From Verrucomicrobiaceae bacterium (GTDB taxonomy: Bacteria; Verrucomicrobiota; Verrucomicrobiia; Verrucomicrobiales; Verrucomicrobiaceae), in assembly GCA_016795485.1 (NCBI GenBank), contig JAEUHM010000041.1:62001-126000 (forward strand): a stretch of DNA of 64,000 nucleotides, in the 5' to 3' direction. Positions 30,415-34,848 of this stretch are shown one piece after another (position 1 is the stretch's first letter; each line of letters opens with the position of its first letter). Below the pieces are notes generated by a model. That model had not been told where the DNA came from and ran no database searches. It worked only from the letters and a program-made list of their open reading frames with translations. A program made the translations under genes and the position numbers.

Positions 30415-30714
30415 GGTCGAGTAACATGATTTTCCGTCTCAAAGACACCCTTGCTCAAGGTCGAGTAACGCGATGTTCGAGGTCGAGTAACGCGATGTTC
30501 GAGGTCGAGTAACGCGATGTTCGAGGTCGAGTAACGCGATGTTCGAGGTCGAGTAACGCGATGCTCGAGGTCGAGTAACGCGATGCTCGGGGTCGAGTAA
30601 CGCGATGTTCGGGGTCGAGTAACGCAATGTTCGAGGTCGAGTAACGCGATGCTCGGGGTCGAGTAACGCGATGCTCGGGGTCGAGTAGCGCAATACTCGA
30701 GGTCGAGTAACGCG
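30415..30714. repeat. Tandem array of a 22-bp repeat (11 full copies plus decayed edges)
   Basis: The unit starts GGTCGAGTAACGCGATG and ends TTCGA. Full copies begin at 30459, 30481, 30503, 30525, 30547, 30569, 30591, 30613, 30635, 30657 and 30679, and a 14-nt partial copy at 30701. Copies 1-4 are identical; later copies differ only by transitions at unit positions 10, 14, 17, 18 and 22. A 17/22-matching copy lies at 30415, exactly two periods upstream, with a weakly matching unit between. There are no unique spacers, so this is not a CRISPR. The minus strand is free of stops in all frames here, giving spurious 22-aa periodic readings. Confidence 0.95.
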
Positions 30715-31245: not shown

Positions 31246-31707
31246 ATGTCTAATGAGCTTCAACAAGCTCATCTGACCATACGTGCCTCTGTAACCGATG
31301 ATCGACATGTGAGGCTGTTTGCACGTGCCCACAAGGTGGAGCTGGGGCCTGGATGGAGCTTTGATATCGCTGAGCCGTCCGCTACCGGGGCCGAGACACT
31401 GCTTGGGGTGCTTGCTTCGGATGTGATGTGCGTGTTCGCGCGGCTGGCTAAGCAGAAGCGGGTCATCGTGGATGAAATGGAGGCCACGGTTTCAGCAGAC
31501 TTGCTCGATCCGTTGGTTCATCTGGGCGTGATCGGTGCCAGTGGCGAGCCTCGCTATGAAAACTTTGTGCTGCGTGCCTATGTGGGCACCAGTGCCGCAG
31601 AATCAACCGTGCGCGCCCTCTGGGACGAGTCTCTGGCTCGTGCGCCTCTCTACAATACCCTCCGTCATGCTGCCCAGGTGCGTGCGGAACTCATTCTCAC
31701 TCACTAG
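31246..31707 (+). CDS. OsmC-like protein with only one Cys
   Basis: The 153-aa protein follows the OsmC/Ohr fold order: an N-terminal strand pair (GPGWSFDIAEPSATGAETLL), a central helix with C62 (ASDVMCVFARLA), and a C-terminal APLYNTLRHAAQV segment. In peroxidases of this family that last segment usually holds the second catalytic Cys; here the position is Ala (A133). A classical two-Cys hydroperoxidase mechanism is therefore unlikely. It is the first gene of a tight four-gene operon (2 nt to the next gene). A thiol-handling or ligand-binding role alongside the flavoprotein is possible. Confidence 0.8.
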   Translation: MSNELQQAHLTIRASVTDDRHVRLFARAHKVELGPGWSFDIAEPSATGAETLLGVLASDVMCVFARLAKQKRVIVDEMEATVSADLLDPLVHLGVIGASGEPRYENFVLRAYVGTSAAESTVRALWDESLARAPLYNTLRHAAQVRAELILTH

Positions 31708-31709
31708 TC

Positions 31710-32855
31710 ATGTATTCCTTATCAGCCGATCAACTTACCTTCGTGCAAAAAGCACGTGAGCTAGCTCAAAACGTCCTCGCCACTCACGCTGGAGATGTGG
31801 ATGAGAAGGGCCGCTTCCCCACGGAGTCTTTGGCCGCGCTTGCCGAGGCTGGCTTCTACGGGTTGCTGATTCCGAAGGAGCTTGGTGGGCAAGGTCAATC
31901 CCTGAGAGTGCTGGCGGCTGTGGTGGATGAGCTAGCCCAAGCCTGTGCTTCCACGGCGATGATCTATATGATGCACAACAGCGCGGTGAACTGCTACTTG
32001 GCTGAGCCGGAGAAGTTTGCTGACGTGCTGAAAGATGCCGCAATGGGACGTCATCTGGGCACGCTCGCGTTTTCAGAGAAGGGCAGCCGCAGTCAGTTCT
32101 GGGCACCAGTGTCGCGTGCGGTTTCCGCTTCGGGTGGTGTGACGCTGAGTGCGCAGAAGAGCTGGGTGACGAGTGCTGGACATGCGGATGGCATCGTAGC
32201 GAGTTGCATCTCCGCAGATGGCAGTGGTGCTGCGGTTTACTTGGTGAAAAAGAACGATGGCGGTCTCAGCATCACCGGTGGCTGGAATGGACTGGGCATG
32301 AGGGGCAACCAAAGCAATCCGATGACGCTTGAGGATGTGGATCTTGGTGATGAGCGTCTAATCGGTGAGGCAGGAAAGGGCGCGGATATCATGTTGGGCA
32401 AGGCACTGCCCGTCTTCCAACTTTGCCAGGGCGCTATTGGTGTGGGTGTGGCGGAGGCAGCTTTTCAAGCAGCACAAAAGCACATCACTGCTGTAGGATT
32501 TGAGCACACGGGCACCAAGTTGAGTGATCTACCCAATCTCCGTGCAGCGCTTGCCGAGATGCGTCTGGAAGTGGACAAGGCCCGTGCCTACTTGGTGGCT
32601 GTAGTGGGTAAACTGGAAGCTGGAGATGCGGATGCGATGCTGCACGTCCTTGCCCTGAAGGCCAGCTCTGCTGAGACGGCAGTCAAAGTTTCCGACTTGG
32701 CAATGCGTGCGTGCGGCGGGGCTGCCTTTAGCAAGCATCTTGGCCTGGAGCGCGCCTTCCGAGACGCTCGTGCTGCGATTGTGATGGCTCCTACGACTGA
32801 TCACTTGAGGGAGTTCGTCGGCCGTTTGCTCGTGGGTCTGCCACTTTTTGGTTAA
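31710..32855 (+). CDS. Acyl-CoA dehydrogenase-like flavoprotein with an altered active site
   Basis: The 381-aa length and domain order are those of acyl-CoA dehydrogenases: an N-terminal helical domain (EAGFYGLLIPKELGGQG), a central beta domain (LGTLAFSEKGSRS, SAQKSWVTSAGHADG) and a C-terminal helical domain (MRACGGAAFSKHLGLERAFR). After RDARAAIVM, where canonical enzymes have EGT with the catalytic Glu, this protein has APTTD (A360-P361-T362). That form recalls relatives such as DszC/SfnB, flavin-dependent monooxygenases of sulfur compounds. A hydroxylase or monooxygenase-like reaction is as plausible as acyl-CoA oxidation. It lies 2 nt after the OsmC-like gene and 20 nt before the binding-protein gene. 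Confidence 0.8.
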   Translation: MYSLSADQLTFVQKARELAQNVLATHAGDVDEKGRFPTESLAALAEAGFYGLLIPKELGGQGQSLRVLAAVVDELAQACASTAMIYMMHNSAVNCYLAEPEKFADVLKDAAMGRHLGTLAFSEKGSRSQFWAPVSRAVSASGGVTLSAQKSWVTSAGHADGIVASCISADGSGAAVYLVKKNDGGLSITGGWNGLGMRGNQSNPMTLEDVDLGDERLIGEAGKGADIMLGKALPVFQLCQGAIGVGVAEAAFQAAQKHITAVGFEHTGTKLSDLPNLRAALAEMRLEVDKARAYLVAVVGKLEAGDADAMLHVLALKASSAETAVKVSDLAMRACGGAAFSKHLGLERAFRDARAAIVMAPTTDHLREFVGRLLVGLPLFG

Positions 32856-32875
32856 TCCTTAGCTCTTTGTCAACT

Positions 32876-33703
32876 ATGTCCACATCCAGTCCAGTTATCG
32901 TCGGCGCGGTGCTCTACGATCCCAAGGTGTCCATCATCTGGGAGATCATCCGCGAGTTCTTTGAGTCCAATGGCTGTCCGATGGACGTAAAGCTTTACGC
33001 TGACTACGATCTACAGAACATCGCGCTCATGAATGGCGAGATTGAGGTCGCTTGGAACTCGCCCTTGGCATGGCTGGATGCACAGCGCCGTAGTGGTGGC
33101 ACATGCCGGTCTATTGCGATGCGTGACACGGATCGCGACCGCGTTTCTCACATCATTGTTAAGTCAGACAGTGCGATCAAGAGCTTGAGTGACCTTCGAG
33201 GCAAAACAGTGGCGCTTGGAGCGAAAGACTCTCCCCAGGCACGGCTCATCCCGCAGGGTTTGCTCGGTCGCCATGGGTTTATTCCTGGGCGTGACTACAC
33301 GGAGAAGCGCCACGATTTGCTCGTGGGCTTGCATGGCGATCACATCGGAGGTGAGAAGGAGGCTTTCCTCACTCTCAAGCGTGGCGAGGCAGATGCATCC
33401 GCGCTAATTGATCTCAATTGGGAAGCATGGACTAAAGATGGCACGATTGATCCCGCCAAGTTTCGCATTCTAGCAACGACGGATCGTTACGATCACTGTG
33501 TGTTCGCGGTGCGGCAAGACTTTGATGCCCAGCGTGAAGCGAGTTGGCTGGCAGTGCTCCATCAGATGAGCTATGACAATCCCAAGCATCGCGAAATGAT
33601 GGACATGGAAGGTCTCAAGAAGTGGGAGCCGGGACGGACGAGCGGTTTTGCCGCGTTGGCGGAGGCTGTGGAGCTTCTTGGATTCTTTGAAGGGGCGGAA
33701 TGA
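32876..33703 (+). CDS. PhnD-like substrate-binding-fold protein without signal peptide
   Basis: The ATG at 32876 was chosen over an in-frame TTG at 32867. The 275-aa protein is similar to PhnD-type phosphonate binding proteins in layout: VGAVLYDPKVSIIWEI at the start, NGEIEVAWNSPLAWL in lobe one, then the conserved SLSDLRGKTVALGAKDSPQA hinge region and LKRGEADASALIDLNW. There is no signal peptide or lipobox, and no ABC ATPase or permease is nearby, so it is probably cytosolic. Cytosolic proteins of this fold include enzymes (MqnA/MqnD, Thi5-like). Its last 4 nt overlap the methyltransferase start (ATGA), implying coupled translation. Confidence 0.82.
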   Translation: MSTSSPVIVGAVLYDPKVSIIWEIIREFFESNGCPMDVKLYADYDLQNIALMNGEIEVAWNSPLAWLDAQRRSGGTCRSIAMRDTDRDRVSHIIVKSDSAIKSLSDLRGKTVALGAKDSPQARLIPQGLLGRHGFIPGRDYTEKRHDLLVGLHGDHIGGEKEAFLTLKRGEADASALIDLNWEAWTKDGTIDPAKFRILATTDRYDHCVFAVRQDFDAQREASWLAVLHQMSYDNPKHREMMDMEGLKKWEPGRTSGFAALAEAVELLGFFEGAE

Positions 33704-34848
33704 CTTTTTCCGTCACTCAGATTGGCTCCTGGCCGCGCTCGGAGAGATTGCTTGCTGCTTTGCGTGAGAAACGCATGGACCGCATTGCCCAAGCGGAGTT
33801 TGACCAGATCGCGGACGCTGAAATTGTGCGATGTCTCCAACTTCAACACGAAGCGGGTGTGGACATGGTGGTGGATGGTGAACTACGGCGTGACAACTTT
33901 TACTCGTTCATCACGGATAAAGTCGAAGGCACCAAACTGATGTCTCTGGCGGAGATGCTGGACACGGTAGAGGACAAGGCTGCTTTTGAAGCGATGCTGC
34001 AGACGCTCGATGCTCCAGCGTTTGCGATTCGGAATCCGACCTGTGTGGGCAAGCTGAGGCGAAAAGAGCCACTGGTGGTGAATGACTTGCGCTTTGTGAA
34101 GCGACACAGTGACAAGCCAGTGAAGGTCACGTTGCCGGGGCCCTATTTGCTGACCCGTGCCATGTGGGTGACGGCTCACTCGTTCGCCGCGTATGGTGAC
34201 AAGCCAGTGATGGCGGATGATGTGGTGACGATCCTGCGGGAGGAGTTGGCCGATCTTGTGAGCGAGGGTGTGGAGTGTGTTCAATTTGATGAACCGGTGC
34301 TCACGGAGGTCGTTCATAGTGGCGACAGCAAGCGGCGGACGTTCATGTGTGCCACGCTTGCCGTGCGTAGAGACACTAGTTCGGAACTCGCTTACGCGGC
34401 TGAGTTGATGAATCGAGTGGTGGCAGGATTTGAAGACAAACTGCGAACGGGCATCCACGTCTGCCGTGGAAACTGGTCTCGGCGGGAAGATGTGCTCATC
34501 ACGGGAGACTATCAGCCTCTGGTGGAGTGCTTCAAAGGCATGCGGCTGAAACATTATGCTCTGGAGTATGCCACGCCACGTGCTGGAGAGTTGGACGTCA
34601 TCGGCCGAGCACTGGGAGATCGCGAAATTGGTCTCGGATGTGTGAACCCGCGCACGGACGAAGCTGAAAGCGTGGAGTCCATCCAAGAGCGCGCCCAGGA
34701 GGCGCTTCAGTATTGGAAGCCCGAGCAGATTTCACTCAACCCTGACTGCGGCTTTGGCTGTTTCGCCAATCGCTGCGTAAACGAGGAGGCGGCAGCGGTA
34801 GGAAAGCTCCGAGCAATGGCTGAGGCTGCTAGGCGGTTACGGGGATAG
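33700..34848 (+). CDS. MetE C-terminal-like (cobalamin-independent methionine synthase family) zinc methyltransferase
   Basis: The 382-aa protein corresponds to the catalytic C-terminal half of MetE. Zinc-ligand positions are present: H253 and C255 (IHVCRGN), a Glu at about E289 (LEY) and C350 (NPDCGFG). The N-terminus TQIGSWPRSERLLAAL is the family's GS-x-PR motif, and FDEP at about 196-199 is conserved. Stand-alone proteins of this size use diverse methyl or alkyl donors and thiol acceptors, including MetE-like core methyltransferases and coenzyme M transferases, so methionine synthesis is only one option. It ends the four-gene operon. Confidence 0.85.
   Translation: MTFSVTQIGSWPRSERLLAALREKRMDRIAQAEFDQIADAEIVRCLQLQHEAGVDMVVDGELRRDNFYSFITDKVEGTKLMSLAEMLDTVEDKAAFEAMLQTLDAPAFAIRNPTCVGKLRRKEPLVVNDLRFVKRHSDKPVKVTLPGPYLLTRAMWVTAHSFAAYGDKPVMADDVVTILREELADLVSEGVECVQFDEPVLTEVVHSGDSKRRTFMCATLAVRRDTSSELAYAAELMNRVVAGFEDKLRTGIHVCRGNWSRREDVLITGDYQPLVECFKGMRLKHYALEYATPRAGELDVIGRALGDREIGLGCVNPRTDEAESVESIQERAQEALQYWKPEQISLNPDCGFGCFANRCVNEEAAAVGKLRAMAEAARRLRG

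Follow-up and report, generated by a model that had tools for sequence, protein, structure and literature searches.

A conserved four-gene operon of a Verrucomicrobiaceae bacterium with a probable role in selenium handling

A four-gene operon in a 64,000-nucleotide stretch of the Verrucomicrobiaceae bacterium assembly GCA_016795485.1 (contig JAEUHM010000041.1, positions 62,001 to 126,000 of the forward strand; hereafter the window) encodes an OsmC-like protein, an acyl-CoA-dehydrogenase-like protein (ACAD), a PhnD-like binding protein (SBP) and a half-size MetE-like protein, in this order. Our comparative analysis suggests that these genes form a conserved module which is almost certainly linked to selenium and which probably helps cells to obtain or handle this element. 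The link is drawn from the co-distribution of the module with SelD, from its synteny with SelA, SelB and SelD, and from an exchange of cysteine for selenocysteine (Sec) among the MetE-like proteins.

The four open reading frames are tightly packed, as a preliminary description of this DNA had stated, with gaps of 2 and 20 nt followed by a 4-nt ATGA overlap between the SBP and MetE-like genes. The SBP start was taken as the ATG at 32876, with a possible alternative TTG upstream at 32867. Families were assigned with Pfam and NCBIfam profiles by comparing bit scores with the curated cut-offs. The features are as follows.

31246-31707, + strand: OsmC-fold protein (OsmC, PF02566) without conserved catalytic cysteines; relatives are often fused to a TusA-like domain
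31710-32855, + strand: ACAD-fold flavoenzyme of the Rv1679/FadE16 kind (NF049984), conserved in both kinds of locus, type A and type B (defined below)
32787-32795, + strand: codons of Ala360-Pro361-Thr362, which take the place of the ACAD catalytic-base motif EGT (computed from residue numbers)
32876-33703, + strand: PhnD/PtxB-fold binding protein of the Rv1680 kind, without signal peptide and predicted to be cytosolic (NF049985, TIGR04553, AlphaFold2 model)
33497-33499, + strand: codon of SBP Cys208, an invariant residue whose counterpart in P. stutzeri PtxB is the capping Tyr203 (position by alignment)
33700-34848, + strand: half-size MetE-like zinc enzyme that keeps the homocysteine-binding and zinc residues
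34348-34350, + strand: codon of MetE-like Cys217, TGA (predicted Sec) in five relatives
34456-34749, + strand: span of the zinc ligands H253, C255, E289 and C350 (conservation alignment)

Conservation of the module

An alignment of the SBP was searched through 84,980 genomes and yielded 348 relatives, of which the best 80 were kept. These fall into type A (L016-L033, n = 18; 59-83% identity) and type B (L034-L095, n = 62; 43-50% identity). In type A, the OsmC, ACAD, SBP and MetE genes occur together in Verrucomicrobia, Planctomycetes, Chloroflexi and Acidobacteria, and the set is complete in 14 of the 18 loci; two others are cut by contig ends (L016 and L026, the latter a Nitrospirae contig) and two lack genes (L025, L033). 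The order is either OsmC-ACAD-SBP-MetE or OsmC-SBP-MetE-ACAD, a variation that argues for functional linkage and not for mere shared ancestry of one block, and in most type A loci an OsmC-family gene stands upstream of ACAD/SBP or MetE. The co-occurrence in other phyla that the preliminary description had proposed to look for is thus found, and the proposal of one conserved functional unit inside the cell is supported. Within the GTDB family of the window, the SBP is present in 2 of 68 genomes, and a search of a phylum sample returned no relatives in the other 287 genomes.

Type B loci come from Proteobacteria, Actinobacteria, Myxococcota and others. Here the partner of the ACAD-SBP pair is a protein that begins with a TusA-like domain and ends with an AurF-like diiron domain (55 of 62 loci, against none of the 18 type A loci). 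The same adjacent pair, with the APT motif and no signal peptide, is seen in the mycobacterial NCBIfam families of Rv1679 (FadE16) and Rv1680, but loci of this type in mycobacteria and rhodococci contain neither OsmC nor MetE. Three ACAD-SBP pairs were seen in Actinomycetota (L006-L008; Miltoncostaea, Mycolicibacterium, Rhodococcus). They resemble the Rv1679-Rv1680 region of M. tuberculosis, and some of them have radical SAM and DoxX genes.

TusA-, DsrE- and OsmC-type proteins are typical of sulfur and selenium handling, and YedF is a TusA-like protein. TusA-like domains were found fused to three partners, namely OsmC (L018, L019, L157), the AurF-like diiron domain of type B, and a MetE beside SelA on a Paracoccus plasmid. 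At L018 (3400-4503) and L019 (8055-9164), a DsrE gene and a TusA-OsmC fusion lie between the SBP and a predicted Sec-containing MetE. The Paracoccus ferrooxidans plasmid pFER4 (L009, 2881-9571) carries the TusA-MetE fusion, its MetE part 41-42% identical, beside SelA and TrxB, with TusA, DsrE and a cysteine desulfurase in the vicinity; this megaplasmid cluster is possibly a further version of the system.

Co-distribution with selenium genes

In the GTDB family of the window, SelD is found in only two of the 68 genomes, and these are precisely the ones that carry the SBP (Fisher p = 0.0004); this comparison inside a single family is the cleanest of those made. Across the 36 module genomes tested, SelD scored above its cut-off in 34 (type A, 18/18; type B, 16/18), while its background in the phylum of the window is 11/194 with the window's own genome included; the comparison of 18/18 with 11/194 mixes phyla. 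The two type B genomes without SelD retain SelA (G369) or MnmH (G371), which makes incomplete assemblies likely.

The selenium genes are also found next to the module. SelD stands beside it in four type A loci (L016, L017, L030, L032), and in L017 SelA and SelD flank it. In 18 of the 62 type B loci, sel genes occur within about 7 kb, often with the ACAD-SBP pair between SelA and SelB; the pair repeatedly has genes for SelA, SelB, SelD, formate dehydrogenase (FDH) and a TIGR04553 SBP around it. The arrangement in Variovorax reads FDH-SelA-ACAD-SBP-diiron-SelB-SelD-transporter SBP. In nine Variovorax/Hydrogenophaga loci (L054, L059, L069, L076, L079, L080, L086, L087, L090), ACAD-SBP-diiron and SelB have a TIGR04553-kind SBP gene within a few kb, in most of them adjoined by SelD; this SBP is a candidate high-affinity selenium importer.

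The host genome of the window (6.5 Mb, 99.9% complete) contains an mnmH-selD pair (L165, 5278-7366; G000 C41) whose two genes share one strand and are 1 nt apart; selD encodes a Cys-type SelD and is directly preceded by the gene of MnmH, the tRNA 2-selenouridine synthase. SelA was not found in this genome, and the host thus probably uses selenium for tRNA selenouridine only. As its host has mnmH-selD and lacks SelA, the module is independent of selenocysteine, which points to a function that selenium users have in common, for instance the provision of selenium to SelD.

A distribution that tracks selenium users could also be expected if the module served detoxification or discrimination, methylating or diverting selenide or selenohomocysteine and so protecting selenium-handling cells instead of supplying SelD; the zinc and homocysteine residues kept in the MetE-like protein (see below) would suit such an activity. 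We consider this quite unlikely, because a position flanked by SelA and SelB, with a 'selenate' importer close by, fits supply better, and because the module is missing from nearly all relatives that do not use selenium although the toxicity of selenium is general.

The MetE-like protein as a predicted selenoprotein family

The MetE-like protein has 382 amino acids and consists of the catalytic domain only (PF01717, 108 bits), whereas canonical MetE is about 750 amino acids long and has an N-terminal folate-binding domain. In E. coli MetE, homocysteine is bound by S433, E484 and D599, and there are four zinc ligands (PMC7857596). The corresponding residues S10, E61 and D197 are invariant in all 50 sequences of the set, which counts the L019 genome twice (again as L135), and the zinc ligands H253, C255, E289 and C350 are kept in all 49 relatives that cover them, confirming the half-size form with these ligands reported before. 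The host genome holds four MetE-type matches, none of them in an open frame long enough for a full-length MetE (335-385 codons).

In two relatives, from Verrucomicrobiia (L018) and Planctomycetaceae (L019), a single TGA interrupts the MetE-like frame, reading TFM-U-ATL where the window has TFM-C-ATL. A TGA at the codon of Cys217 was also found in Myxococcales (L044) and twice in Planctomycetota (L157, L161), and position 217 is either Cys or TGA in all 50 sequences without exception. L018, L019, L157 and L161 are full length, with similarity continuing past the TGA, while L044 ends shortly after it. Five TGAs at one invariant Cys codon, with similarity beyond it in four, are the usual signature of Cys/Sec exchange, and these MetE-like relatives are accordingly predicted from sequence to form a selenoprotein family with Sec at position 217 in five genomes. 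Among these genomes, both SelA and SelD were found in G352, G353 and G374 and SelD in G431; SelD was not found in G561. Hairpins resembling a selenocysteine insertion sequence (SECIS), with a G close to where the apical loop begins, occur downstream of the TGA; their folding against shuffled sequences (z = -2.3 for L019, -1.1 for L018) is not strong alone. Cys/Sec exchange at an invariant residue is likewise seen in known prokaryotic selenoprotein families, which may have the hairpin in common with these relatives as well; a 2026 review tabulates 119 such families (PMC13188914, Table 1), and the MetE-like family is absent from that table.

Other in-frame stops were considered as Sec codons and rejected. 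The TGAs that end the ACAD and SBP frames are ordinary stops, and the TGA in L036 falls at a conserved Trp of MetE, with TAA/TAG inside the SBP. This contig (2600-5200; SBP-MetE-OsmC relatives) belongs to a 'Campylobacter' metagenome-assembled genome (MAG) and may be misbinned, degraded or of another genetic code.

The AlphaFold2 model of the MetE-like protein (predicted local distance difference test, pLDDT, 83) has its best structural match in MesD (3RPD; Z 36.7, root-mean-square deviation 2.4, 320 residues aligned, 23% identity). The MesD/MesX system (Price et al., 2021, PMC7857596) shares with it the half-size MetE fold, the zinc ligands, the homocysteine-binding residues and the presence of partner genes. 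It differs in that our protein, only about 23% identical to MesD, has the Cys/Sec217 loop, is tied to SelD and has no MesX (DUF1852) in its cluster: no match to this family was found among the window genes scanned around the operon. Assignment to MesD in the cited study corresponds to at least 560 bits to ACIAD3523, or about 72% identity. Filing the gene as a plain MesD was rejected for want of a MesX neighbour. A folate-independent methionine synthase of the MesD kind, with ACAD and SBP supplying methyl groups in place of MesX, would account for the structural match and the retained residues, and MesD too needs an oxygen-dependent partner (PMC7857596). Yet this is very unlikely, since DUF1852 is missing from the scanned neighbours, the ACAD/SBP partners are found without MetE in type B, and methionine supply predicts neither the co-distribution with SelD nor the Cys/Sec exchange. 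The preliminary description was right in not taking plain methionine synthesis as the obvious role.

The binding protein and its pocket

The SBP matches PF12974 (112 bits); its best NCBIfam model is NF049985 (Rv1680; 208.5 bits, cut-off 400), followed by TIGR04553, a 'putative selenate' SBP (73.5 bits). No N-terminal signal was detected, in contrast to the related 'selenate' transporter SBPs with which it was aligned, and no genes for an ATP-binding cassette (ABC) permease or ATPase were found among the operon neighbours scanned. The protein thus has neither of the two hallmarks of a periplasmic PhnD-type transporter SBP, a signal peptide and adjacent ABC genes, as had been noted previously. 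TIGR04553 proteins, which are found beside SelD/MnmH, have a signal peptide, an STS motif and a Tyr cap, while the module SBP has no signal and carries S-P-Q and H207-C208 instead.

The folds nearest to the AlphaFold2 model (pLDDT 93.6) are HtxB, PtxB, PhnD, ArrX and AioX (Z 21-24). The phosphite site of PtxB (5O2J) includes Y49, S124-T125-S126, H155 and the Tyr203 cap (PMC5700983). By alignment, the window protein has Y44, S119-P120-Q121 and H153 at these places, with Cys208 replacing the cap, and all of these residues are invariant across 30 relatives. PtxB and HtxB (phosphite/hypophosphite) as well as AioX and ArrX (arsenic oxyanion) share the fold, the bilobed oxyanion pocket and the pocket Ser/His with the SBP, but they are periplasmic. 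In AioX, which has the PhnD fold, the pocket residue Cys106 binds arsenite (PMC5908839), indicating that a pocket Cys of this fold can bind a metalloid oxyanion, although Cys106 sits elsewhere than Cys208.

This pocket also bears on the main alternative, which keeps selenium and reverses the direction. As a carrier downstream of SelD, the SBP would bind the SelD product selenophosphate with its selenium facing Cys208, and the other proteins would channel it to MnmH/SelA or into some other selenium metabolite. Selenophosphate resembles phosphite and methylphosphonate, the ligands of the nearest folds; the replacement of the capping Tyr by an invariant Cys and the strict co-occurrence with SelD would likewise be expected. 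However, two oxygen-contact residues of PtxB (STS) are altered to S-P-Q, the flavoenzyme, MetE-like and diiron partners are left unexplained, and ACAD-SBP relatives without sel neighbours exist. On balance, such a carrier appears unlikely.

The flavoenzyme and the OsmC-like protein

All three ACAD domains were matched in the Pfam scan of the ACAD-like protein, and its best NCBIfam model is NF049984 (Rv1679/FadE16) with 403.9 bits against an equivalog cut-off of 600. With scores under the cut-offs of NF049984 and NF049985, ACAD and SBP are relatives and not certified members of the Rv1679/Rv1680 families. Dehydrogenating acyl-CoA dehydrogenases have their catalytic Glu in the motif EGT, while the family of the window protein has APT; across 17 relatives Pro361 never varies, and conservation of Ala360 is at least 90%. 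Judged from its sequence, the protein is thus ACAD-like without the dehydrogenase catalytic base.

The OsmC-like protein scored 24 bits with PF02566, under the Pfam cut-off of 27.5. OsmC/Ohr peroxidases have two catalytic cysteines, whereas no conserved Cys column was present among 19 relatives; the domain appears to be without both. The preliminary description had reported the loss of the second Cys, which is correct, but the first is not conserved either. More generally, it had presented the operon as one of modified enzymes. The APT motif, the missing signal peptide and the half-size MetE are real, but they are family-wide traits, and the notion that such changes are peculiar to this operon was rejected because they recur throughout the relatives of the SBP, OsmC and ACAD.

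Lower-ranked NCBIfam models for ACAD include acryloyl-CoA reductase, 3-sulfinopropanoyl-CoA desulfinase and SfnB. The resemblance to the latter two, and that of the SBP to phosphonate SBPs, would suit a sulfur or phosphorus pathway with an indirect selenium association. Given the exact match with SelD in one family, the sel synteny and the predicted Sec in the MetE-like protein, we regard this as highly improbable. A small sulfur, phosphorus or selenium compound had been suggested as the substrate; SelD co-distribution, synteny and Cys/Sec exchange support selenium, and the other two elements are not favoured.

Proposed mechanism

Taken together, a binding protein that has a pocket thiol and lacks an export signal, fusions to chalcogen carriers, a zinc/homocysteine scaffold for methyl transfer with its Cys/Sec loop, and the SelD-positive genomes in which they occur are best accounted for by the capture of oxidised or methylated selenium compounds and the release of their selenium to SelD. 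It therefore seems reasonably probable that the operon is a cytosolic selenium-supply (salvage) module acting upstream of SelD. We infer its ligand, reaction order, direction and methyl transfer as follows. The SBP, having lost its export signal, would capture a small selenium species, for instance selenite or an alkylseleninate, with the invariant Cys in its oxyanion pocket, and the base-less flavoenzyme would act on the C-Se bond or the oxidation state of an organoselenium compound. OsmC- and TusA-type domains may hold selenium as a protein-bound chalcogen. The MetE-like zinc enzyme would bind homocysteine and pass to it the methyl group of a methyl-selenium adduct, which the mobile Cys217/Sec217 loop would carry. 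The products would be methionine and freed selenium for SelD, and then for MnmH (selenouridine) in the host or SelA elsewhere.

Since both the homocysteine site and the zinc site are intact, we favour methyl transfer to homocysteine as the chemistry, but the demethylation step by the MetE-like protein is put forward tentatively. The same caution applies to the full scheme, a possible salvage of methylated or oxidised selenium by SBP, base-less ACAD and MetE-like demethylation onto homocysteine (with a Sec loop in some), in parallel to a version in which a TusA-diiron oxygenase replaces MetE/OsmC. The bind, oxidise and demethylate chemistry of the preliminary description is likewise something we infer.

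Several observations weigh against salvage upstream of SelD. SelD is common in Planctomycetota anyway, and the association is modest there (38 of 43 MetE-like carriers against 24 of 37 non-carriers; p = 0.012), in the same direction and weaker. In the genome of the window the module has no sel genes next to it, and many module loci come from MAGs. ACAD-SBP pairs of mycobacteria and rhodococci have no obvious sel context and may serve another ligand or function. OsmC-MetE is found without ACAD-SBP in some loci, so that a single linear pathway of all four proteins is not required. Finally, residues 208-223, which include Cys217, form a low-confidence loop in the AlphaFold2 model, which is therefore a weak guide to how far Cys217 lies from the zinc.

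Relation to known selenium systems

YedE/YedF, DUF3343 and LysR_Se have been described as SelD-linked selenium accessory candidates (Lin et al., 2015, PMC5322559). The module is likewise SelD-linked, but its genes belong to other families, and none of the four is named in the main text of that study. Among the open-licence PMC papers searched we found no earlier description of the module, no paper with Rv1680 as its topic, none joining FadE16 with methionine, and none linking SelD with ACAD and SBP or MetE with selenoprotein families. The delivery of selenium to SelD in cells and high-affinity acquisition by bacteria are open questions according to the 2026 review (PMC13188914). The module offers concrete candidate proteins for selenium supply, with defined pockets and residues; it spans at least four phyla, with a sister form in Proteobacteria and Actinobacteria. 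It also brings in a predicted selenoprotein family whose scaffold is of the MetE type and provides a lead for the mycobacterial Rv1679-Rv1680 pair. If the proposal is true, this would be a selenium-acquisition pathway not previously described.

Sequences around the operon

Promoter and terminator scans gave results no better than those for shuffled sequence. Upstream of the operon, at 30458-30714 of the window, a 22-bp unit (AGGTCGAGTAACGCGATGTTCG) is repeated in tandem about 12 times.

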